In this document: piece after piece, positions 17,687-31,257 of the stretch
How the letters are laid out: each line of letters begins with the position of its first letter
Position numbering within the stretch: position 1 is the stretch's first letter
DNA from: Azospirillum brasilense
Lineage (GTDB): Bacteria > Pseudomonadota > Alphaproteobacteria > Azospirillales > Azospirillaceae
Direction of reading: 5' to 3'
NCBI RefSeq assembly: GCF_003349955.1
Contig: NZ_QLKQ01000014.1
Coordinates: 1-64,000 of the forward strand
Length of the DNA: 64,000 bases
Made by a program: the position numbers and the translations under genes
The notes under the pieces: generated by a model
The model's database searches: none
Told to the model about the DNA's origin: nothing
Seen by the model: only the letters and a program-made list of their open reading frames with translations

Positions 17687-20557
17687 TCATGTCAGCCCCG
17701 CCTCCCCCTTTTCGATGGCGCGCAGGGCGGCGTGAAGCCGGTCCCGCAGCGCCGCCGCGTCCCCTTGCATGGAAGCGGTCCCCCCGCCCCCGCTTTCGAC
17801 GGCCTGCGCCGTCCGCTCCAGTGCCCGCGCCGCGGCGCTCACCTCCGGAAAGCCATAGGTGCCGCCACTGCCCTTCATGCGGTGGGCCGCATCGACAACG
17901 CGCCGGGGCGGCGAGTCCGCGTCGTCGAGGACCGCCAGGACCTCTCGGCAGGCCTGGGCGAAGCGGTCCATCAGCCGGGTCCGATCGGCGCTGGACAGCC
18001 CGCCGGCAACCGGCCCCGCCGTGAACGGCGCCCGCTGGACCGTCACGGACGGAGCGGGCGCGCCGGAGCCCGACGGCGCGTGACGGGCGAGCGCGTCCTG
18101 GAGCGCGTCGGGGTCCACCGGCTTCGCCACCACCTCGTCCACGCCGGCGTCCAGATAGTCCGCGCGGTCCTCCGGAGAGCTGTTGGCGGTCACCGCGATC
18201 ACCGGCACCAGCGCGCGCTCCGCATCCGGCAACGCGCGGATGCGCCGCGTCACCTCCACCCCGTCGATCCCCGGCAGCCGCATGTCGAGCAGGACGACGT
18301 CCACGGTCCTGGTCGCCAGCACCGCCAAGGCCGCCTCGCCGCTCTCCACATAGACGGCGCGATGGCCGCCCGGCGCCAGGTACTCGCGCAGGATGGCCTG
18401 GTTCTCCGGCGCGTCCTCCACCACCAGGATGTCCAGGCTTCCCGGAACGGGCATGGGAGCGGCGCGGTCCGGTGACGGATCGGCGACCGGCAACGGGCGG
18501 GTCGGCAGCGAGACCGTGAAGAGGGAGCCGCCACCCGGCCGCCCCTCCAGGCAGACCGTGCCGCCCATCAGCCGGACGAGCCCGTCGACGATGGCGAGCC
18601 CCAGCCCGGCGCCTTCGCGGCGGTTGCCTTCCAGCCGGCTTCCCTCCAAACGATGGAAGGGCTCGAAGATGATGGCCTGCGCCGCCCGCGGCACGCCGGG
18701 ACCGCTGTCCGCCACGGTCAGGCACAGGACGACCGTCCCGCTGGCCGCGTCCGGTGGCGCATGGCTGGTGGTCAGCGTCACCTCCACCCCGCCGCGTTCG
18801 GTGAATTTCACGGCGTTGCTCAGCAGGTTCAGAACGATCTGGCGCAGGCGCAGTGGATCGATCCAAAAGCGCGCCACCCCCAGGCCGCTGACCGTCAGGG
18901 ACAGGGCGAGCCCCTTTTCCTCGGCGCCCGCCCGCATCAGCGCCACGGCGTCCTCGACCAGCGCCACCACGTCGGTGGGCTGGGGATGAAGCTCCATCCG
19001 GCCCGCTTCCAGCCGCGACAGATCGAGAATGGTGTCGAGCATCGAGACGAGGTGCCGCCCCGCCCCGTCCGCGACGCGCAACCGCTCGTCCATCCGGTCG
19101 GTCGGCCCCTCGCGGCGGATCACCCGCACCATGCCGAGAATGGCGTTCAGCGGGGTCCGGACCTCGTGGCTGAGGTTGGCGAGGAAGCGTTCCAGCGTCG
19201 CGGACTTGTCCGACAGGGCGCGGGTGCGCTCGGCGATCTGGCGCTCCAGCCCCTCGTTGAGCGCGGCCAGCTCCTGGGACAGCCGGCGCTCGTTGAGGAA
19301 GGCCGTCTCCACCCGCCGCCCCAGCACCAGCGCGTGGCTGAACAGGAACAGCAGCGCGCCGTAGGGAACGAGGTCGATGCTCTCGAAGAAATGCGCGTAC
19401 ATCAGCGCGTCGTGCACCACCGACCCCAGGAAGGCCAGCGCGCCCGCCCCCAGCAGGAGCGCGCCGGAATGGCGGCGCAGGGCGGCCACGGCGAGGCGCC
19501 ACGCGAAATACAGGGCCGACAGCACCAGCAGCAGGCTCGCCACGTCGCGCAGCCGGGTGAACTGCGCCGGCTCGGTCACCAGAACCAGGAACATGCCCGG
19601 CACCGCGACCGCCATCATGGCGCGCCCGACCCCGCGGTGCAGGCAACCGGGAAACAGCTCGCGCAACAGGTGGAAGTAGATCGGGTAGAACATGTAGATC
19701 GGCAGATATTCCAGCCGGTAGGCCCAGACCTCCGACACGCCGGGGAAGAAGACGCGCAGCAGTTCGCTGGTGCACATCAGCCGCATGGCGCAGGCGGCCA
19801 GCAGCATGACCAGGAACAGCGGGGCCGCCGAGAGGCGCCGGCGCAGGAAGGCGCCGATGAACAGCGCCATCAGCGACAGCGACATCAACGCCCCGGCGTT
19901 GGTCATCAACTGCCGCTGCCACAGACGCGACAGCCCGCCGTTGGCGTCGAGATAGATCGTGCGCCCGATTCCGCCCTCGAAATGGAAGTGGTTGGAGACC
20001 TCCACCGCCAACTCGATCACCCGCTGCCCGCCGTGCAACGTGACGAAGCGGGAAACGGAGGAGGACCGCTCCTGCGCGGCGGCCAGGGCCGGCACTCCGG
20101 CGCCGGCGACCGAGCGGCCGTCCACCCACACCCGCATGGCCGAATTGACCGGCGGCATCTTCAGCGTCAGCGGTGGCATTCCCGGCGGCAGCAGGATCTT
20201 CAGGCGGAAGGTGGCGGCGCCAAACCCGCCCATCTCCCGGCCGTCCGGGCGCTCCACCCCGTTCCAGATCGCCGGCAGGGTGAAAAGCGTCCAGAGCGAC
20301 CCATCCGGCTCCGGCAGGGGATTCAGGCTTTCCTCCCCGGCCAGACGGTCCCAGGACACCAGCCATTCACCGTCCAGCGACACCGGCCCGTCGAGGTCGG
20401 CGTACCAGCCGCGCAGGTCGAGCACGCCGCGCTCCGCCTGCGGCAGGACCGTGGCCAGAGCCGGACCGCTGGCCAGAACGGTGCAAAGAAGAGCGAGAAG
20501 CAGAACCGCGCCCAGCCGTCGGGCGCCACAAGCAAAAATGGCGGTTACGGACGGCAT
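17687..20557 (-). CDS. Hybrid sensor histidine kinase with 7TMR-DISM input, receiver and HPt domains
   Basis: A 956-residue membrane kinase. A signal peptide (about 1-36) is followed by a beta-rich extracytoplasmic domain of 7TMR-DISMED2 type (GEWLVSWDRLAGEE, later FRLKILLPPGM), about seven membrane helices (roughly residues 215-400), a coiled coil, HisKA with NLSHEVRTPLNAILGM, and HATPase motifs (LRQIVLNLLSNAVKF, DSGPGVP, GAGLGLAIV). A receiver (VVEDAPENQ, VVLLDMRLPGIDG, VVAKPVD) and a C-terminal HPt (DAAHRMKGSGGTYGF) complete the phosphorelay. I preferred the ATG at 20557 because the upstream extension is not signal-like. 7TMR-DISM inputs are thought to bind small carbohydrates or similar ligands. 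Confidence 0.88.
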   Translation of the reverse strand: MPSVTAIFACGARRLGAVLLLALLCTVLASGPALATVLPQAERGVLDLRGWYADLDGPVSLDGEWLVSWDRLAGEESLNPLPEPDGSLWTLFTLPAIWNGVERPDGREMGGFGAATFRLKILLPPGMPPLTLKMPPVNSAMRVWVDGRSVAGAGVPALAAAQERSSSVSRFVTLHGGQRVIELAVEVSNHFHFEGGIGRTIYLDANGGLSRLWQRQLMTNAGALMSLSLMALFIGAFLRRRLSAAPLFLVMLLAACAMRLMCTSELLRVFFPGVSEVWAYRLEYLPIYMFYPIYFHLLRELFPGCLHRGVGRAMMAVAVPGMFLVLVTEPAQFTRLRDVASLLLVLSALYFAWRLAVAALRRHSGALLLGAGALAFLGSVVHDALMYAHFFESIDLVPYGALLFLFSHALVLGRRVETAFLNERRLSQELAALNEGLERQIAERTRALSDKSATLERFLANLSHEVRTPLNAILGMVRVIRREGPTDRMDERLRVADGAGRHLVSMLDTILDLSRLEAGRMELHPQPTDVVALVEDAVALMRAGAEEKGLALSLTVSGLGVARFWIDPLRLRQIVLNLLSNAVKFTERGGVEVTLTTSHAPPDAASGTVVLCLTVADSGPGVPRAAQAIIFEPFHRLEGSRLEGNRREGAGLGLAIVDGLVRLMGGTVCLEGRPGGGSLFTVSLPTRPLPVADPSPDRAAPMPVPGSLDILVVEDAPENQAILREYLAPGGHRAVYVESGEAALAVLATRTVDVVLLDMRLPGIDGVEVTRRIRALPDAERALVPVIAVTANSSPEDRADYLDAGVDEVVAKPVDPDALQDALARHAPSGSGAPAPSVTVQRAPFTAGPVAGGLSSADRTRLMDRFAQACREVLAVLDDADSPPRRVVDAAHRMKGSGGTYGFPEVSAAARALERTAQAVESGGGGTASMQGDAAALRDRLHAALRAIEKGEAGLT

Positions 20558-21002
20558 GACGGCAGGCGGCAGAGGCACCGGGACACAGTTCCTTCGGCAG
20601 GCGCATGGCACAGGCCGCGGCCCGACCCGCAGGTCGAATGACGCCCAGCCGATCCCATCATGAGAGGTATCGCAAAACGGTCGTTGCGGAAATACCGATG
20701 CACCCAGGCATTTAAAGCCGAAACCCCATGAAACCGAAACCGGCCACGCTGCGAAGTATAATCGGCCATCGGCGCAACAACGACTCACAAATTCACAGCA
20801 AGCTTCATCAATCGTAAATCCTATAGAAAATGTGGTTTTAACCTCTCAATCGAGGATGAGGCCCATACTTGGCGCTGACCACCGAACGTGGCGATTTCAA
20901 CAGCGTTCGCTAATGGGCAGAGCGCCCGGAACCGCCCGAACACAGGCGAACCTCTGGACGCTCCGACACAACGCACCCGATGGGTGATGACGCTGAACGC
21001 GG
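20558..21002. other. Intergenic region with no supported gene
   Basis: These 445 bases separate the hybrid kinase gene from the 3' end of the helical-protein gene. The part around 20750-20870 is clearly more AT-rich than its surroundings and probably carries the kinase promoter. Short reading frames here lack coding character. A weak hairpin CACCC-GAT-GGGTG lies near the 3' end of the helical-protein gene, without a U-run. Confidence 0.6.
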
Positions 21003-21912: not shown

Positions 21913-22686
21913 TCAGCGACCGCCCACCAGCTGCACCACGCCCTTGCAGACGGTGGCGAACTCCTTGATGAGGTCGGTGATCTGGCGGGCGGTGTAGTCG
22001 GGCGGCACGCGCATCGGCGGCCCGTCGCCGCCCTGCCCGGCCCACGGGGCGAGCTTGCGACGGTAGAAGTCGGGATCGGCGCGCAGCCCGTCCAGCGCCT
22101 TCGCCGCGGCGAGCTGGGCGGCGAGATCGCGGGCCAGCGCCGGGAACAGCTCGTTGTAGGTGTCCGGCGTCGGCTTGGCGCGCACCTTGGCGACCCCGGC
22201 GGCGGCGCGGGCGAGCGCGCCGTTGATGTTGGCCTCCCATCGCTTCTGCGCCCGCTCCGACGAGGCGGCGTCCTTCTCGGCCTGGGCGGCCTGCGCCTTG
22301 AAGCGGTCGGCGTCCGCGCCGATGTCCGCCTCCAGTTCGGCGACCTCCTTGACAAGGGCCTTCATCGCCCGTTCGCAGACCGCCGCCGCAGCCTTGTCGC
22401 CACGGCTTGCCGTATCCTCGTCCAGGGCCTTGCCGAGCGTGGCCAGATAGGCTTTGCGCGCCTTCGCGGCGTCCTTCCCCACGGCGACGAGAGCCCTCAC
22501 GGCCTCATCGCCGGCCGTGGCGGCGCGGTGGACGGCGTCGCCGGCCTTCAACGCCTTGACCAGCGCGGCGTCGCCGTTCAGCGCGGCGGCGACCGCCTTG
22601 GCGTCCTTAGGCCGGTGCTTCGCCGTGGCGGCCTCGAAGCGCTTGCGGGCCGCGGCCCAGCGCTGCTCGTAAGGGACATGCGCCAT
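21913..22686 (-). CDS. Helical coiled-coil protein of unknown function B
   Basis: A 257-residue alanine/lysine-rich protein, predicted helical throughout, with long heptad-like tracts (KEVAELEADIGADADRFKAQ) and a more structured C-terminus containing DFYRRKLAPWAGQ and YTARQITDLIKEFATVCKGV. It has no signal peptide or membrane helix. It begins 21 bases after the ATP-grasp stop and so is probably in the same operon. Function unknown; a structural or scaffold role for the neighbouring enzymes is only a guess. Confidence 0.7.
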   Translation of the reverse strand: MAHVPYEQRWAAARKRFEAATAKHRPKDAKAVAAALNGDAALVKALKAGDAVHRAATAGDEAVRALVAVGKDAAKARKAYLATLGKALDEDTASRGDKAAAAVCERAMKALVKEVAELEADIGADADRFKAQAAQAEKDAASSERAQKRWEANINGALARAAAGVAKVRAKPTPDTYNELFPALARDLAAQLAAAKALDGLRADPDFYRRKLAPWAGQGGDGPPMRVPPDYTARQITDLIKEFATVCKGVVQLVGGR

Positions 22687-22707
22687 CGCCGCCCGTCCGT
22701 TCCGACG

Positions 22708-23961
22708 CTACGCGACGGTCGGCTGGAGGCGGTCCTCCAGGGAGCGGATGGCGGCCCAGTCGCGCTCGAACACGGCGCGGTCCGGATGCGCCAGATAGAC
22801 CTTCGCCAGCACCTGAGTCAGATCGAGGGTCGGCACCACATCGTCCCCGACCCGCGGCACGAGGCCGTAGCCGCGCACGCTCGCCATCCCGTCGAGGACG
22901 GAAAGGTCCGGCAGCGCCGCCACCCGGCCCGACACCAGAACCGGCAGGTAAAGGACCATCGCGTCGGCCTGGAACCGGTAATGGCCGTCGAGCAGCGGCC
23001 CGACCGCCGCCGCCCCGTCGAAGGCGTCGACCAGCAGATCGACCTGATCGTGCCCGGTGCCCGCCGCGATGCCGGTGGTCGAGCCGGCCGGCCCCATGGC
23101 GCGCGCCGCGATCTCCACCAGCGCCGGTCCGCGCGCGGTCATCCGCACCTCGGCATGGCCGGCGCCGTCGGTGATCTCCAGCGCGTCGAGCACCCGGCGG
23201 ATGTAGGCCATCAGCGCCTGCGCCACCGGCTCCTCCGGCGGCAGCAGACGGTAATAGTCGTAGACGAAGGGCGACCCGTTCAGCGCCCGCTTGGCCGACA
23301 GCAGGACGTCGCAGACATAGTGGCGCCCGCCGCGGCTGACCGTGTTGACGACGTATTCGAGCCCGTCGAGGTAGGTCTGCACCAGCACCCGCTCGTTGGC
23401 CGAACCGCAGAAGTCGCGGCTGCCCAGGATGGCGTCCACGGCGGCGCGGAGCTGCGCGGGGGTGTCGCAGAAATAGACATGGTCGGTGGAGGCGCTGGCC
23501 ATCGGCTTCGCCACCACGGGCCAGCCCGCCTGTGCCGCCCACTCCACCGCCTCCGCGGCGCCGGTCGCCATGGTCTGGCGGGCGGTCAGCAGGCCGGCGG
23601 CGGCCAGCCGCTCGATCATCATGAACTTGTTGCGGCGCGCGGCGGTCAGCTTCGGGCTGTTGCCCGGCGTGCCGAGAAGGGCGCCCAGCGCGTCGGTCAG
23701 CTCCACCGCGGACTCGTTGCCCGGCAGGATGAAGGCCGGGGCCAGCGGGCGCAACGTCCTCGCCAGCGCGTCGAGGTCGCCGTCATGGAGGATGTGCGCC
23801 GCGAAGTCGTTGGGCTGATAGCTGCGCAGCAGCGACAGGGCGAGGTCCGGGCGGCTCTGCACCGCGACCACGTCGTAGCCCCGCGCGCGCAGGCGCGGCG
23901 CCAGAAGGATGCCGGTGGAATAGGGGTCGACGACGACCGCAATCTTGCGCAGGGCACTCAC
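22708..23961 (-). CDS. ATP-grasp carboxylate-amine ligase
   Basis: A 417-residue cytosolic enzyme with the ATP-grasp layout. It has an N-terminal pre-ATP domain (VDPYSTGILLAPRLRARGYD, then FILPGNESAVELTDALG), the nucleotide lysine in VVAKPMASASTDHV (Lys152), VQTYLDGLEYVVNTVS, and the metal-binding block HAEVRMTARGPALVEIAARAMG. This is the arrangement of L-amino-acid and dipeptide ligases of the BacD/RizA kind, which join a carboxylate to an amine through an acyl-phosphate. The substrates cannot be read. Its start overlaps the upstream GNAT stop by 4 bases (23958-23961). Confidence 0.85.
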   Translation of the reverse strand: MSALRKIAVVVDPYSTGILLAPRLRARGYDVVAVQSRPDLALSLLRSYQPNDFAAHILHDGDLDALARTLRPLAPAFILPGNESAVELTDALGALLGTPGNSPKLTAARRNKFMMIERLAAAGLLTARQTMATGAAEAVEWAAQAGWPVVAKPMASASTDHVYFCDTPAQLRAAVDAILGSRDFCGSANERVLVQTYLDGLEYVVNTVSRGGRHYVCDVLLSAKRALNGSPFVYDYYRLLPPEEPVAQALMAYIRRVLDALEITDGAGHAEVRMTARGPALVEIAARAMGPAGSTTGIAAGTGHDQVDLLVDAFDGAAAVGPLLDGHYRFQADAMVLYLPVLVSGRVAALPDLSVLDGMASVRGYGLVPRVGDDVVPTLDLTQVLAKVYLAHPDRAVFERDWAAIRSLEDRLQPTVA

Positions 23962-24743
23962 GGCGTGGCCTCCAGCTCGGCGTCCTGGGGTACGGCCTGC
24001 ACCGGCTCCTGCGGGCGCGCGTAGGTGACCAGCGGCACGGGACCGTCCAGCTCCACCGACCGCCCGATCCAGCCGGCCTCGATCACCGCCCTCTGCTCGT
24101 CCAGCTCGGGCACCGCGAAAACGCGCTCGCTGCCCGGCACCCAGGCGGGCGGCGCCGCCCCCAGGTCGCGGTGCAGCAGGTAGCGCAGCCGGCCGCTGGC
24201 GTGCATGACCAGCACCCGGCGCACCAGGAAGCCGCCGGCCAGCAGGTTCGCCAAGCTGCGCGGGTTGGACAGGGCGACGCGCGAGAACAGGTGCGGGCGC
24301 CCGGCCCCGAGCGCGTGGAGCGTGCGCAGAGTCACCAGCAGCCGTTGCAGCCCGTTGCCGCGGAAGTCCGGATGGACCATGCAGCTCGCCATGTGGGCGG
24401 TGGCGGTGACGGCGGGGCGCGCGCCCGGCAGGTCGTCCACGAAGGCCGGCATGCCCGGCTGCGGCAGCCCCAGGATGGCGCAGCCGATCAGCCGCCCCTC
24501 GGCCTCCAGCCCCAGGGTCACGCCGCGCTCACCCAGATGCAGACCGGCGAACTCCGGCGTTTCGGGGAAATAGGCGTCGATGTCCGGCAACTGCCCGAAG
24601 ATGTAGCCGCGGAACGCCTCCAGCGCCGGCAGGTCGGCGGGGCCGAGGAAGCGGATGCGGTAGGGAACGCAGACCGGCTCGCCGCGCCGGACGCGCAGCA
24701 TGCCCGTGTGGACCGTCTGTTCGGGGGATAAGAGGACCGTCAT
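23958..24743 (-). CDS. GNAT-family N-acetyltransferase
   Basis: A 261-residue protein with the acetyl-CoA fold: RIRFLGPADLPALEAFRGYI at the start of the domain, ASCMVHPDFRGNGLQRLLV with the RGNGLQ phosphate loop (about residues 117-135), and VALSNPRSLANLLAGGF. The C-terminal 80 residues extend beyond a minimal GNAT. It is encoded 1 base after the binding-protein stop and overlaps the ATP-grasp gene by 4 bases. The pairing suggests that it acylates the substrate or product of the ligase. Confidence 0.82.
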   Translation of the reverse strand: MTVLLSPEQTVHTGMLRVRRGEPVCVPYRIRFLGPADLPALEAFRGYIFGQLPDIDAYFPETPEFAGLHLGERGVTLGLEAEGRLIGCAILGLPQPGMPAFVDDLPGARPAVTATAHMASCMVHPDFRGNGLQRLLVTLRTLHALGAGRPHLFSRVALSNPRSLANLLAGGFLVRRVLVMHASGRLRYLLHRDLGAAPPAWVPGSERVFAVPELDEQRAVIEAGWIGRSVELDGPVPLVTYARPQEPVQAVPQDAELEATP

Positions 24744-24744
24744 G

Positions 24745-25797
24745 TCAGGCGTCCTGGACGATTTCGGCGATGTTGAGCAGGCGCATCGGCGGGTAGAGGT
24801 CCAGTTGCTTGGCCGCCCCGATGCGCAGCAGCAGGGAGAAGCGGTTCAGCGTCTCCACCGGAATGGTGTCGGCGGGCTTGGCTCCGGTCAGGATCTCCAC
24901 CGCCTTCAGCCCGGCGAAGCGCCCGACGTTGACGGCCGGGCTGACCAGCCCCATCAGCAGGTTGGCCCGGCGGATTGGCAGCTCGGTGGAGCAGAAGGTG
25001 GCCAGCCGGTGGGCCAGCGCCTGCTCGGCCACCACCGCGTTGTTGTTGGAGGCGACCAGCGTGTCCGGCCCGATGTAGACCAGCTCCGCCCCGGCGCGCG
25101 CCGCGTCGGCGATCAGGTCGGGGATGGCGGCGGCGACCGGCGCGCCGGAGGCGTCGCGCGGCAGCGCCGCGTCGTGGATCTCCACCCCCTGGCGGGCGGC
25201 CTCCTCCTTCAGGTCGCGCACGGCGACGACCATGTTGTCCTCGGCCGGGTTGTAGACCGCGGCGATCTTCTTCCAGCGCCGGTAGGACAGCATGGTCTTC
25301 ATCTGCACCGCGGCCGGCGCGATGTGCCTCGTGCCGGTGACCGCGCGCCCCGGACGGTCCAGCGCGCGCACGACCCGCGAGGCCACCGGGTCGGTGACCG
25401 AGGTGAAGACCACCGGCACGTCGGTCAGGAAGCGCGACGGGTCCGGATCGTCGTAGCGCCCGACCGCTCCCAGGGTCAGCGGCGTGAAGACCGTCACCAC
25501 CAGATCGGGCTTGGAGGCCCGGATCTCCGGCAGCAGCGCCGGCATGGCGGAGGCCTGCGGCACCTCGCGCACCTCCACCGTGGCGGACAGGCCGCTCGAC
25601 GCGATGAAGTCGCGCAGGCCCAGCACGTCGCCGACGTCCTTGCGCGGGGTCAGCACGACGATGCGCGCCGGCTTGGCGGCGGTGAAGGTCCGGGCCGCCG
25701 GACCGAAGGACGGCTGCGCGAAGGATGGTGCGGCCCCGGCCAGCAGAGTTCCGGCGCTCAGGGCGGCCGTCAGGACGGTGCGGCGGGACAGGCTCAT
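24745..25797 (-). CDS. ABC-type substrate-binding protein, PF04392-like, Tat-type signal
   Basis: A 350-residue periplasmic protein. The signal peptide contains the twin-arginine motif SRRTVLTAAL and an AQP cleavage region near residue 28. The mature part has the layout of the TrpX-like ABC_sub_bind family: IVVLTPRKDVG, a DLVVTVFTPLTLG strand, DVPVVFTSVTDPVASR, KKIAAVYNPAEDN and YIGPDTLVASNNNAVVAEQA. Members bind amino acids or other small ligands. No ABC permease or ATPase is adjacent; instead it lies between a HAMP-MFS fusion (4-base overlap at 25794-25797) and a GNAT gene. It may present the ligand to the sensor-like proteins upstream. Confidence 0.85.
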   Translation of the reverse strand: MSLSRRTVLTAALSAGTLLAGAAPSFAQPSFGPAARTFTAAKPARIVVLTPRKDVGDVLGLRDFIASSGLSATVEVREVPQASAMPALLPEIRASKPDLVVTVFTPLTLGAVGRYDDPDPSRFLTDVPVVFTSVTDPVASRVVRALDRPGRAVTGTRHIAPAAVQMKTMLSYRRWKKIAAVYNPAEDNMVVAVRDLKEEAARQGVEIHDAALPRDASGAPVAAAIPDLIADAARAGAELVYIGPDTLVASNNNAVVAEQALAHRLATFCSTELPIRRANLLMGLVSPAVNVGRFAGLKAVEILTGAKPADTIPVETLNRFSLLLRIGAAKQLDLYPPMRLLNIAEIVQDA

Positions 25798-27773
25798 GCG
25801 GGGGTCCTCTGCGGAAGGTCGGCGGCGGGCGGACGCGGGCGGAACAGGGTGCTCAGCAGAAGCTGCACGGCGACGCAGGCCGCCAGCACCGCGCCGATGC
25901 CCTTCAGCGCCCCGGCGTAGCCGTAATGGGCCAGGAACAGCCCGGCCAGGAAGGGAGCGATGACCGAACCCAGCCGCTCGATCAGGCGGAACATGCCGAT
26001 CACCGTGGTCTCGCCCAGCGCCGCCCGCTCCTTGACGCAGACGTCGGCGAGCATGGCGAGCTGCGGCGCGCCAAGCATGGCATGCGCCACCCCCAGCAGG
26101 GCGACCCCGGCCAGCGCCGTGCCGAGCGAACCCGGCATCGACAGCACCCAGGCGGCTCCGGCGGCGACCAGCCCGCCCGCCACCAGGAAGCCGATGCGCT
26201 GGCCCGAGCGGTCCGACAGCTTCGCCGCCATCGGAGACACCACGATCATCAGCAGCCAGTAGAGCAGCAGCACGCGGCCGATCCAGGACTGGCTGACCCC
26301 CTGGTCGTCCAGCGCCAGCGGCAGCAGGAAGAACAGCAGCGCCGTCAGCCCCAGCTTCGCCGGAACCGCGCTGAAGACGGCCAGCCCGACGAAGCGCGGG
26401 TTGCGCAGGCACAGCACGGCGTCGGCCAGACGCAGGCCGCGGCTGGATTTCGCCTGGGCCGCGCGCACCCGCGGCAGCACCTGCCACGCCATGAAGGCGG
26501 CCAGCAGCGCCAGCCCGGCGGAGATCAGGAAGGTCGTGCGGAAGCCCACCTGCCCGGCGATCACGCCGCCGATGGCCGGGCCGCAGACGCCGGCGCTGAG
26601 GATGCCGCCGGCGTACATGGCGATGGCCTGGGCGCGCTGCTTGGGGTCGGTGGCGTCGATGACGAAGCCCTGCGCGGCGATGAAGACGCTGGCGTAGCCG
26701 ACGGCGGTCAGGCAGCGCGCGACGATGAGCTGGATGAGGTCGGTGGCGAGGCCGGAGCCGACGAGGCCGACGAAGGACAGCAGCGCCCCGCCCAGGAACA
26801 CGGCCCGCCGCCCGCGCCGTTCCGACACGCTGCCGGCGATCGGCTGGCTGACCGCCCAGAGCAGCATGAACAGCGCGATGGGCGCGCCGATGACCATCTC
26901 CATCGACAGGCCGGGCACCGGCTCGAACAGCTGCTTGATGTAGACGGACAGGAAGGTGCGGGTCAGCTCCTCCGCCAGGGAGAAGACGAAGATGGCGAAG
27001 CGCAGCTCGACCACCCGCTGCATCATACCGATCTTGGTCATCGCCTGCTCGGAGGCGGTCATGTCGGCCTTGTGCTGCACGCTGTCCAGCGCCCAGTCGA
27101 CGGCGCGCGACAGCTCGCCCACCTCGTCGCGGTTGCGCAGGGCGACGCGCACGCCGAGATGCCCGTCGGCGGCCTGCTTCATCACCGCCGTCACCCGGCG
27201 CAGCGGTGCGGCGACGGAGGAGCCGACGACCAGCAGCAGGATCTCGATGTTGAGCAGGATGGCGACGATCAGCACGGAGCCGAGGTCGAACACCACCTCG
27301 TTCATGGCCGAGCGGACATAGCCGGAATCGACGCCGACATGCAGCCGCGCCGCCTCGTTGCCCTCCAGCGGCAGGACGGTGTCGAGGAATTGCGGGGACT
27401 CGCCCTCCGGCGGGGTGTCGGCGACGGTCAGGCGGCTGCCCGCCCGCGCCTCCTCGGTTCCCGAGAAGGCGTGGAGGCGCCCGTCGATCTCCAGCGCCAG
27501 ATACTTGACGTCCGGGTTGGCGGCCAGCGCGTCGGACAACAGCTCGTCCACTCCGACCAGCTTGTCCAGCTCGAAGCCGAGCGCCACCGCGCGGTCGATC
27601 TGCGCCACCACATAGGACCCGACGACCTCGGCCTTGCGGGCCAGTTCCGGCTCGATCAGCGGGCGGAACAGCGTGTTGACGTGGTTGGTCTGGACGGCGA
27701 GGCTGACCAGCATCAGGACGGACACGACGCCCGTCAGCATCCAGTTCAGGCGGCGTATGAAGGACAGCTTCAT
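25794..27773 (-). CDS. Chemoreceptor-like sensor-HAMP module fused to an MFS transporter
   Basis: A 659-residue inner-membrane protein with two parts. Residues 1-240 look like the front of a chemoreceptor or kinase: membrane helix 12-29, a periplasmic domain of about 135 residues (YLALEIDGRLHAFSG, a dCache/sCache-like strand pattern), membrane helix 165-185, then a HAMP with the hallmark DEVGEL at 216-221. Residues 255-645 are a 12-helix major facilitator transporter, including the loop motif GSVSERRGRRAVF. There is no kinase or methylation domain between them, so the HAMP feeds directly into the transporter. Both start and stop overlap neighbouring genes by 4 bases. Confidence 0.85.
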   Translation of the reverse strand: MKLSFIRRLNWMLTGVVSVLMLVSLAVQTNHVNTLFRPLIEPELARKAEVVGSYVVAQIDRAVALGFELDKLVGVDELLSDALAANPDVKYLALEIDGRLHAFSGTEEARAGSRLTVADTPPEGESPQFLDTVLPLEGNEAARLHVGVDSGYVRSAMNEVVFDLGSVLIVAILLNIEILLLVVGSSVAAPLRRVTAVMKQAADGHLGVRVALRNRDEVGELSRAVDWALDSVQHKADMTASEQAMTKIGMMQRVVELRFAIFVFSLAEELTRTFLSVYIKQLFEPVPGLSMEMVIGAPIALFMLLWAVSQPIAGSVSERRGRRAVFLGGALLSFVGLVGSGLATDLIQLIVARCLTAVGYASVFIAAQGFVIDATDPKQRAQAIAMYAGGILSAGVCGPAIGGVIAGQVGFRTTFLISAGLALLAAFMAWQVLPRVRAAQAKSSRGLRLADAVLCLRNPRFVGLAVFSAVPAKLGLTALLFFLLPLALDDQGVSQSWIGRVLLLYWLLMIVVSPMAAKLSDRSGQRIGFLVAGGLVAAGAAWVLSMPGSLGTALAGVALLGVAHAMLGAPQLAMLADVCVKERAALGETTVIGMFRLIERLGSVIAPFLAGLFLAHYGYAGALKGIGAVLAACVAVQLLLSTLFRPRPPAADLPQRTPA

Positions 27774-28591
27774 GGCGCGACTCCCGCCGGGCGCGCGGCC
27801 TCCGCCGCCGGACCGGCGGGCTGGGGAGGGTCCTCCTCCGCACCGTGCTGCTGCTGTTCCAGGATGCGGTCGGCGAAATCCTTCAGGCCGGGGGCGAAGG
27901 CCGCCAGCTCCGGGGTCAGCTTGGGCGGCTCGCCCATGCCCAGCATGTTGATGCTGACGGTCATCTCGCGCAGCCGCCGCTGGATCGGACGCAGCAGCAG
28001 CCAGACCGCGACCATGGTGATCAACAGCCCGGTCAGCAGATTGATGCCGCCGGACAGCAGCAGGTCGGGAATGGTGCCGCGGATGCCCGCCTGCACCTCG
28101 CCCAGCGAATAGGTCAGGGCGACGCCGCCGGCCACGCCGCCGAAGGCGTTGCGGATGCCGAGCAGAAGCGCCTGGCTGTCGCCGTCGGCGACGGCCGCCA
28201 CCCGGTCGGACTTGCCGTCGCGGGCGAAGGCCGCCTTCCAGCCGGCGGGGATCGCGCCCACCGGGCCACCGTGCCCCGCCCCCCGGCCCGCCGCCGCCAG
28301 CACCTCGCCCGTGTCGGTGAACAGGACCAGACCGGTGATCCGGTCGTCCCGCACCATCGCGCGCTGGATCAGCGCGTCGAGATTGCGCAGGGCGGTGATG
28401 GACACGCCGAGGCTGACCGCGCCCTCGACCTCCCCGGCCAGCCCGCGCAGGGCGACGGTGAAGCGGGACGCCACGGTGTCCTCCACCATGCGCTCCATCT
28501 TCAGATAGGAGAGCGCGGCGGTGGAGAGCAGCGCGAAACAGAGCGCCACCTGCAGCAGCAAAATGATCTTGGTCGTCAGGGTCAGGCGCAT
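27770..28591 (-). CDS. Two-TM sensor-like membrane protein without an output domain
   Basis: A 273-residue protein: membrane helix 8-30, a periplasmic sensor domain of about 145 residues (DDRITGLVLFTDTGEVLAAA is Cache/PAS-like), membrane helix 178-200, and a short cytoplasmic tail starting RPIQRRLREM as a HAMP would. The tail ends proline/alanine-rich after about 70 residues with no kinase, GGDEF or methyl-accepting domain. I chose the ATG at 28591 because the longer reading begins with non-conserved sequence. It is the first gene of the leftward run and overlaps the HAMP-MFS gene by 4 bases. Confidence 0.75.
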   Translation of the reverse strand: MRLTLTTKIILLLQVALCFALLSTAALSYLKMERMVEDTVASRFTVALRGLAGEVEGAVSLGVSITALRNLDALIQRAMVRDDRITGLVLFTDTGEVLAAAGRGAGHGGPVGAIPAGWKAAFARDGKSDRVAAVADGDSQALLLGIRNAFGGVAGGVALTYSLGEVQAGIRGTIPDLLLSGGINLLTGLLITMVAVWLLLRPIQRRLREMTVSINMLGMGEPPKLTPELAAFAPGLKDFADRILEQQQHGAEEDPPQPAGPAAEAARPAGVAP

Positions 28592-28964: not shown

Positions 28965-29942
28965 ATGCGGATCGAGTTGGAGCGACCCTTGGCGTGGCCG
29001 GTGCGCCCGGTTCAGACCAGCGCCGGCCTTCATGTTTCGGCGACGTCCATTCTGATCGCCTGCGCCGACCGCGCGCTGGGAATCGGCATGCACGACGCCT
29101 TCGAACGCAACGGCCACCGCATCCACGTGACCCACGACCCCATCGCGGCGCTCGACACGCTGGAAGCGGACGGCAGCATCGGCATCGTGGCGGTCGAGTT
29201 GGCCCTGCCCCATTTCGACGGGCTGGCTCTGGTCGAGCGGATGCGCAAGAGCGTGCAGCGGCATCTCCAGGTCATCGTCGTAGCACCCGACGCCACGGCG
29301 GCGGACGTCGTCCGCGCCATGCATCTGCGCGCGGCGGACTTCGTCAGCGATCCGCAGGACGGCAGCCAGCTTCACGGCGCGCTCGCCCGCGCCCTGGCCG
29401 CCCATCAGGCGGCGGCGCCGCTGCCCGCCCCGCCTGCGCACGCCGGCAACGGCGCGTTGCATGGCGCGCTGGAGGACGCCTACCGCCACGGCCTCGCCCT
29501 CATCGAAGCGGTGAAGGCGCTGCGGGAGAACCAGCCTGAGGCGGCCGCGCCGGCAAGGGTCACCGCGCAGGCCGCTCCGCCCCCGCCCCCTGCCGCGGCG
29601 GGGGAAAACCGGCGGCTGGCGGTTTTGAGGACGCTCCAGCAATCCCGCGTCGCCCGCGACAAGTATTTTCCGAAGGGGCTGTTCGAGGACCCCTGCTGGG
29701 ACATGCTGCTCGATCTGATGGCCAACCACCTGCGCGGGCGGCGGATTTCCGTGTCGTCGCTGTGCATGGCCTCCGGCGTGGCCCAGACCACGGCGCTGCG
29801 GCGGATCACCGAACTGCACGATCGCGGTCTGGTGCGCCGGATCGCCGACGAGAAGGACGGCCGCCGCGTCTTCATCGAACTGACCGAACAGGGGATCGTC
29901 GCCCTGTCCGACTATGTCGAGCACATCCAGGACCTGACCTGA
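28965..29942 (+). CDS. Pseudo-receiver fused to a MarR-like winged helix (second copy)
   Basis: A 325-residue paralogue of the protein at 15571-16641. The receiver part (about 27-145) has lost phosphorylation chemistry: the phosphoacceptor Asp is Glu78 (VAVELALPHFDG), the acidic pair is CAD, and the conserved lysine is Asp129 (FVSDPQD). The C-terminal winged helix (about 230-318) is nearly identical to its paralogue, including KGLFEDPCWDMLLDLM and DEKDGRRVFIELTEQG. It probably binds DNA with a state set by something other than phosphorylation. It is transcribed away from the sensor/MFS run and may regulate it. A GGGGAAGGG ribosome-binding site precedes the ATG. Confidence 0.82.
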   Translation: MRIELERPLAWPVRPVQTSAGLHVSATSILIACADRALGIGMHDAFERNGHRIHVTHDPIAALDTLEADGSIGIVAVELALPHFDGLALVERMRKSVQRHLQVIVVAPDATAADVVRAMHLRAADFVSDPQDGSQLHGALARALAAHQAAAPLPAPPAHAGNGALHGALEDAYRHGLALIEAVKALRENQPEAAAPARVTAQAAPPPPPAAAGENRRLAVLRTLQQSRVARDKYFPKGLFEDPCWDMLLDLMANHLRGRRISVSSLCMASGVAQTTALRRITELHDRGLVRRIADEKDGRRVFIELTEQGIVALSDYVEHIQDLT

Positions 29943-30090: not shown

Positions 30091-31257
30091 ATGGCCGACC
30101 AGAAACTGAAGGATGTGATCGTCGTCGCGACCCCGACCGAGGGGATCGGCCCGACATCCTCCCTGCCCACGCGCCCGGCGTCGCCCAGCGAGGAGCCGGA
30201 CCGCCAGCGCATGGCCGAACGGCTGCGCGCCCAGGGTTGGAGCTACCGCCGCATCGCGGAGGAGTTGCAAGTCTCCTACATCCTGGTGTCGCGCTGGCTG
30301 GGGGGTGACGGCGCCACCTCCGGCGGTCCGCGCACGCCGCCGACCGCCGTCGCTCCCTCCCCGCCGGCCCCCGGCGGGACGCGGACGGCCAAGGCGACCA
30401 AGGCCGCGAAGGCGGCGGCCAGCGCGGCCGCGCCCAGCGCCGACGAGGATGTTCTGGCGCTCCAGTTCCGCGCCTTCGAGCAGTATGTGCGCGAGGTGAT
30501 CGACGGCATGGAGACGCGGCACGAGTCGCTTCTCCAACGCCAGGAGGAGCTGATCCAGGCGCTCGACACGGAGCGCGCCGCCGCCCGTGCGCGGGAAGAG
30601 GAGTTGCTCGCCACCCTCGACCAGGAGCGCCAGCGCTGGAGCGAGGCCGAGGACCGCTTCCGCGAGGAGCTTGAACGCTTCAAGACGGAGATGCGCCGCG
30701 GCCAGAGTGCGGCGAGCGCGGTCGCCGTTGCCACTGCGGCACTCGGCGGTGGCGACGAGGAGGAGGAGGAGTCCTCGGATTTCTCCGCTTTCAGTTTCGA
30801 CGACGATGACGACGAGACCAAGGACGACGATGCGGGCGGCGATGACGCCAACGCCTTCAACTTCGATGATGACGAGGATGAGGACGGCAGCGATCCCTTC
30901 AGCTTCGACACCGACGACGCGGAGGAGACGGCCGAAGACGAAACAACCGACTCGGCCGACAGCGCTGACGACGACGGTGACGATCCCTTCAGTTTCGACG
31001 ATGACGAAACGGAGGAAACGGCCGAGGACGCTCCCGCCAAGACGGATGCGGAACCGGACGAGGACCCGTTCTCCTTCGACAGCGACGACGAGCCGGACGA
31101 GCCCAAGGCCGAAGCCGAGCCGGCCGGAACCGCAAAGGCTGACGCCGAGGACGATCCCTTCTCCTTCGGCGACGAGCCGGAGCCCGAACCGGAGCCGGAG
31201 CCCGAACCGGAGGCCCCGCCGAAGAAGAAGGGACTCTTTGGCTTCTGGCGCAAATGA
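30091..31257 (+). CDS. Acidic repeat protein with N-terminal helix-turn-helix and FSF motifs
   Basis: A 388-residue protein of unknown function. Residues 38-70 (MAERLRAQGWSYRRIAEELQ and then VSRWL) look like a resolvase/transposase-type helix-turn-helix. Residues 120-203 form a charged coiled coil. Residues 220-375 are extremely acidic and probably disordered, punctuated by six short motifs: FSFD at 234, FNFD at 256, DPFSFD at 268, 298 and 325, and DPFSFG at 355. A (PE)n tract follows, and the protein closes with the basic-aromatic tail KKKGLFGFWRK. The motifs suggest several docking sites for one partner. It lies between the pseudo-receiver gene and dprA. Confidence 0.8.
   Translation: MADQKLKDVIVVATPTEGIGPTSSLPTRPASPSEEPDRQRMAERLRAQGWSYRRIAEELQVSYILVSRWLGGDGATSGGPRTPPTAVAPSPPAPGGTRTAKATKAAKAAASAAAPSADEDVLALQFRAFEQYVREVIDGMETRHESLLQRQEELIQALDTERAAARAREEELLATLDQERQRWSEAEDRFREELERFKTEMRRGQSAASAVAVATAALGGGDEEEEESSDFSAFSFDDDDDETKDDDAGGDDANAFNFDDDEDEDGSDPFSFDTDDAEETAEDETTDSADSADDDGDDPFSFDDDETEETAEDAPAKTDAEPDEDPFSFDSDDEPDEPKAEAEPAGTAKADAEDDPFSFGDEPEPEPEPEPEPEAPPKKKGLFGFWRK

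Follow-up and report, generated by a model that had tools for sequence, protein, structure and literature searches.

Can a receptor module act on a transporter directly, with no kinase between them? The question is raised by a single gene in the 64,000-nucleotide stretch of Azospirillum brasilense DNA analysed here (hereafter, the window), in which a chemoreceptor-like sensor half and a carrier of the MFS type share one reading frame. The conservation of this fusion, of a second sensor, and of a periplasmic substrate-binding protein (SBP) encoded alongside suggests a transporter that is controlled directly from outside the cell.

A sensor, a HAMP domain, and an MFS carrier in one polypeptide

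The fusion protein comprises, in order, a transmembrane (TM) helix, a Cache-like periplasmic domain, a second TM helix, a HAMP domain, and an MFS_1 domain:

25794..27773 (-): sensor 1–HAMP–MFS fusion gene, 659 residues
27324..27665 (-): Cache-like periplasmic domain, residues 37-150 (secondary structure, local pLDDT, Foldseek shape matches, and sCache_3_2 matches of relatives)
27228..27296 (-): sensor helix TM2, residues 160-182, with the membrane-embedded Glu177 at 27243-27245
27075..27224 (-): HAMP domain, residues 184-233 (Pfam PF00672, 38.3 bits against a cut-off of 25, E 1.7e-9)
25839..27002 (-): MFS domain, residues 258-645 (Pfam MFS_1 match and column counts)

The plus-strand frame at 25794-27773 is also open, but is a shadow frame of the GC-rich sequence. 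A sequence-only reading of the window had proposed this architecture, with a DEVGEL segment at residues 216-221 and a full 12-helix carrier, and the details are borne out. DEVGEL is present in the translated minus-strand protein; in the Pfam search that the reading had named as a check, both HAMP (directly after the second sensor helix) and MFS_1 (residues 259-584, 169.6 bits, E 1.2e-49) match above cut-off; and a hydropathy scan places TM segments near residues 9 and 165, followed by 11 more peaks from residue 290 onward. The alignment gives 12 MFS helices; the scan shows one fewer because helix 1 (258-282) lies below its threshold. The MFS domain contains what we take to be motif-A-, B-, and C-like stretches. 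Pfam finds no kinase, cyclase, or MCP domain and no cytoplasmic output domain in the protein, in agreement with the earlier claim that the transporter is the only output within the polypeptide.

The periplasmic stretch is putatively Cache-type, an assignment to which shape rather than a profile score points. Residues 41-150 are predicted to fold as helix-helix-strand-strand...strand-strand, in a block with pLDDT mostly of 70-80 (48-50 over residues 111-130), and the top Foldseek matches are Cache/WalK sensor domains (TlpC, TlpA, WalK), all with E above 0.05 and none at E <= 0.001. The Pfam scan of the window protein gave no Cache match in this stretch; among the dereplicated relatives, 6 of 42 match sCache_3_2. 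Our two AlphaFold models (mean pLDDT 39.3 and 42.2) are unreliable outside the fused periplasmic domain, and the first of these, of the full fusion protein, gives no view of helix packing; the low confidence probably arises because the input alignment consisted only of near-identical sequences.

Distribution of the fusion

The sensor–MFS fusion recurs across many Alphaproteobacterial families and in Gammaproteobacteria, as revealed by the listing of organisms with the same architecture that the sequence-only reading had also suggested. Copies with 93-98% identity occur in seven named records (six labelled Azospirillum, one Roseomonas). At E <= 1e-40, matches were found in 56 of 82 genomes of the family and 21 of 385 genomes of the class; 20 of these 21 are sensor forms, the exception (L065) being a plain MFS protein of 459 residues. 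A 21-member profile, searched within Pseudomonadota as were all our profiles for the fusion, matched 12 of 398 genomes of the phylum at E <= 1e-50, all sensor forms, and 3 of 274 genomes in another class (that of G544) at E <= 1e-60. On a plasmid of the Gammaproteobacterium Vibrio sp. THAF190c, second sensor, fusion, and SBP genes stand side by side.

For comparison of gene contexts, we retrieved loci with wide flanks and scanned these with local profiles, obtaining 83 MFS ORFs in 82 loci: 69 with an N-terminal sensor (MFS E < 1e-50), 13 without a periplasmic sensor, and one degenerate second copy (L138, E 1e-7). This set omits most near-copies of the window gene, as well as G003:C8, G022:C150, G033:C1:4379770, G030, G040:C99, G066, G078, G079, G080, and G081:C1. 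The 69 loci are not independent; dereplication at 85% MFS identity leaves 42 of 68 sensor loci (L054 excluded), all 42 of which match MFS_1 in Pfam. Because the fusion is unbroken in 69/69 sensor–MFS loci, a sequencing error or chance joining of two genes can be ruled out, and so can the possibility that homologues are two separate proteins, since they are fused and not split.

A second sensor and a binding protein accompany the fusion

In the window, the fusion gene belongs to a tightly packed minus-strand set, from the second sensor gene to a conserved gene of unknown family, in which three junctions are 4-nt overlaps. A regulator gene diverges from the set:

28965..29942 (+): divergent response-regulator-receiver/MarR-type regulator (Pfam)
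27770..28591 (-): second sensor ('UP'), TM–periplasmic domain–TM with no output domain; start at 28591 placed from orthologues
24745..25797 (-): SBP, ABC_sub_bind PF04392 by Pfam, weakly TrpX-like
23958..24743 (-): GNAT acetyltransferase (Pfam Acetyltransf_1, 25.2 bits)
22708..23961 (-): ATP-grasp ligase that matches PRK07206 above cut-off and is related to dapdiamide synthase DdaF
21913..22686 (-): gene of unknown family that is conserved in the window's clade (7/68 loci)

The second sensor gene lies just upstream of the fusion gene and the SBP gene directly downstream, each joined to it by an ATGA overlap. Neither these two genes nor the strand of the fusion gene had been noted in the sequence-only reading. 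A Pfam scan of the second sensor returned nothing above cut-off; a profile–profile comparison with the fused sensor (hhalign, 98.6%, E 5.6e-16) identifies the two as homologous. The SBP has a leader that is presumably of the twin-arginine type. No ABC permease or ATPase accompanies it in a Pfam scan of the operon genes (21913-28591), and the membrane subunit is MFS_1 rather than the DctM/DctQ subunits that define TRAP systems. A promoter and terminator scan gave nothing above chance. The receiver–MarR regulator is found in 9/68 loci, those of the window's clade. Further out, the window encodes a hybrid histidine kinase with 7TMR-DISM, HisKA, HATPase, receiver, and Hpt domains (17690-20788, minus strand) and an HTH protein whose long acidic tail repeats D/E-rich 'DPFSFD'-like segments (30091-31257, plus strand).

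The partners are conserved far beyond the window. A second homologous sensor is present in 69/69 sensor–MFS loci, in 60 as a separate gene (59 found by script, plus L099, recognised by eye) and in nine fused in front (L127, L131, L142, L147, L148, L150, L151, L152, and L153; this count was made by eye, the script's figure of 32 being too high on account of short, spurious pieces within the MFS half). An ABC_sub_bind SBP is encoded within the locus in 67/69, as is the cognate SBP of known SBP-activated sensors, and in 63 of these on the same strand less than 1.2 kb away. The exceptions are L054, a 3.5-kb contig, and L094, which has both sensors yet no SBP within about 18 kb. GNAT genes occur in 40/69 loci and ATP-grasp genes in 11/69. 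Over 41-42 dereplicated loci, the pairwise distances for the two sensors, the SBP, and the MFS are strongly correlated with one another (r 0.75-0.86; permutation maximum 0.31), partly because of shared ancestry. With the SBP gene conserved beside the fusion, the signal may be a ligand carried by a protein and not one bound solely by the fused domain.

The window's own genome has three PF04392 genes, of which one is the window's SBP and another, on contig C105, is followed by a divergent MFS protein with two sensors and by a dCache-HAMP-cyclase. In this second copy (L161:3700-12330) the second sensor is likewise fused in front, more divergently; a DctP-type SBP and an alanine-racemase-like gene, named by sequence likeness, are also present.

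Several other loci contain a second UP-plus-sensor module, with a very weak MFS match or few TM helices (L083:11110-15956, L082:11170-15578, L086:2424-7233, L096:11190-13480) and, in several cases, a SpoIIE phosphatase or a cyclase nearby; probes for the module, which include the sensor half, match in 20/68 and 4/68 loci. Single-domain STAS proteins in 10/68 loci (e.g., L087:3244-3576) suggest a partner-switching link. Near the unit we also observed alanine racemase (3/68: L084:11106-12425, L086, L132), ketopantoate hydroxymethyltransferase-like (2/68: L087, L090), and gamma-glutamyltranspeptidase (1/68: L094) genes, neighbours that hint at a possible amino-acid-like cargo.

Helix packing, rather than HAMP, as the probable coupling element

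The fusion that the sequence-only reading interpreted as an externally gated carrier is conserved, but its HAMP domain is recognisable (Pfam) in only 13/42 dereplicated members; HAMP-relayed gating is therefore unlikely as a general mechanism, and the idea of HAMP as an essential relay is weakened. Instead, coupling is probably conserved at the level of helix packing. Glu177, buried in sensor helix 2, is kept in 65/68 sensor forms; R258, before MFS helix 1, in 63/68; and E269, within that helix, in 60/68. Also conserved are the RxxER stretch (R596, E599, and R600 in 68, 67, and 67 of 68) and the MFS motif residues R353 (67/68), G321 (66/68), G402 (68/68), and G398 (65/68). The only three members without Glu177 (L151-L153) form one clade and also differ at positions 258, 269, and 272, a co-change that is compatible with a contact, though it represents one event.

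The nearest solved MFS structures by profile in a PDB search are the drug or amine antiporters NorA, MdfA, and VMAT. Together with a motif C-like glycine spacing, this kinship suggests export by antiport; the MFS half may be a proton-coupled exporter.

A clade that has shed its periplasmic domains

The 13 loci without a periplasmic sensor, all from the genus Azospirillum, offer an informative contrast. Their ORFs of 554-598 residues (about 575 residues) begin with four TM helices and have no periplasmic domain and no HAMP, and no SBP is encoded nearby (0/13). We rejected their classification as plain MFS proteins, as the N-terminal helices retain a YxKF-like motif, seen in the first helix of the second sensor, and the D...FE motif found in the second helix of the fused sensor. 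Because helices and motifs both remain, we regard these ORFs as stripped-down two-sensor forms, a homology judged by eye from the motifs and not by profile score. The Glu177 equivalent is kept in 13/13, as are nearly all carrier residues examined.

Genes for an alpha/beta hydrolase (Abhydrolase) and a histidine phosphatase (His_Phos) adjoin all 13 stripped forms; among sensor forms, only L097 and L103, which have both sensor and SBP, share these neighbours. In a quick tree, whose long branches scatter its outgroup, L097/L103 are the sister of the stripped forms, with support of 100 for the 15 rows, which are nested among sensor-bearing rows. The simplest reading of these sequences is that both periplasmic domains, the HAMP, and the SBP were lost together, once, while the cargo context was retained. 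Such a loss, a single evolutionary event, would link the SBP to the periplasmic domains, and the carrier to the four helices. The clade also provides a ready-made natural comparison between forms that have the sensing apparatus and forms that lack it, the carrier core and the neighbour genes being the same.

How might the unit work?

The sequences themselves establish the fusion, its conserved partners and their co-variation, the joint absence of periplasmic domains and SBP, and the MFS motifs. From these we infer a heterodimer of sensors, docking of the SBP, gating, and proton-coupled export, with substrate and direction read in the same way. The SBP would capture an external ligand in the periplasm and dock on a heterodimer of the homologous Cache-type sensors (the separate one and the one fused to the carrier), whose four TM helices may pack against the MFS core; and the state of SBP and Cache domains would act directly on the exporter-type MFS, opening or restraining it with no kinase in between. 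For the window's clade, a conceivable cargo is an amino-acid derivative made by the ATP-grasp ligase and GNAT encoded beside the unit. To this three-part unit, in essence a LuxP/LuxQ-like SBP–Cache sensor with an MFS output, we assign a probability of roughly 0.45. SBPs usually serve import, which counts against it, as do the SBP-less locus L094, the scarcity of recognisable HAMP domains, the kinship within the co-variation, and the fact that the joint loss happened once. For the broader proposition that an MFS carrier forms a complex with an SBP and a Cache-sensor heterodimer, in which ligand capture is mechanically coupled to the carrier (as gating or as delivery) with no kinase, ATPase, or transcription involved, the odds seem to us about even; such a complex would add a class to the known transport systems.

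Delivery in place of gating would make the system one of SBP-dependent secondary uptake, in which the MFS receives its ligand from the SBP and the Cache pair acts as a docking platform and not as a regulator, TRAP-like with an MFS core. The near-constant, mostly closely linked SBP gene favours this, as does the coincidence of SBP loss with the loss of both periplasmic domains. We nevertheless consider it unlikely, given that the GxxxG(P)xxGG stretch resembling motif C, like the nearest solved relatives, is of antiporter or exporter type, that the 13 SBP-less forms keep the MFS and unchanged neighbour genes, and that the fused and partner domains are sensor-like and not DctQ-like. Somewhat more doubtful is a transceptor, in which the MFS half senses or serves as a membrane relay, the complex signals to regulators, and transport is secondary. 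The strongly kept transport motifs of the main family and the missing cytoplasmic output domain argue against it, even if many loci adjoin second UP-plus-sensor proteins with very weak or no MFS match, 14/68 encode SpoIIE phosphatases (the majority of which match HAMP or dCache), dCache-HAMP-cyclases occur in L083 and after the own genome's second copy, and the window's clade has its divergent receiver–MarR regulator; most loci lack SpoIIE. That the sensor half might serve structure or assembly alone, with no role that depends on a ligand, is improbable: four TM helices do survive the loss of the periplasmic domains, but those domains and the SBP are retained together nearly everywhere else.

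Relation to known systems

A search of open-access papers yielded no description of a HAMP- or sensor–MFS fusion, and the sensor–MFS–SBP unit is apparently undescribed as far as that literature goes. One paper that the search did surface, PMC7660916, concerns TRAP transporters. Gating of the carrier by its sensors, if true, would mean that receptor modules thought to address kinases, cyclases, and chemotaxis proteins are able to act on a transporter without an intermediary, and that an MFS carrier may come with a binding protein of its own.

Each half of the unit has recognisable counterparts. Chemoreceptors (MCPs) and Cache-HAMP kinases share the TM–Cache–TM–HAMP order, and the HAMP region matches MCP I in a PDB search, whereas the fusion has no signalling or kinase domain and its HAMP is often degenerate. 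The DHA1-type proton antiporters NorA, MdfA, and VMAT are nearest by profile and have motif A-, B-, and C-like stretches, to which the present unit adds four sensor helices, two Cache-like domains, and an SBP partner. TRAP transporters likewise combine an SBP, a secondary carrier, and a small membrane partner; their carrier fold is unrelated, and here the partner is a Cache-like sensor and the carrier motifs are exporter-like. A further parallel is with the SBP-activated sensor kinases LuxP–LuxQ, TorT–TorS, and XylFII–LytS (PMC6321045), with which the unit shares an SBP encoded together with a TM–periplasmic–TM sensor and possible docking on that sensor's periplasmic domain. Compared with these systems, the output here is an MFS carrier instead of a kinase, two different sensor subunits take part, and the interaction is putative.
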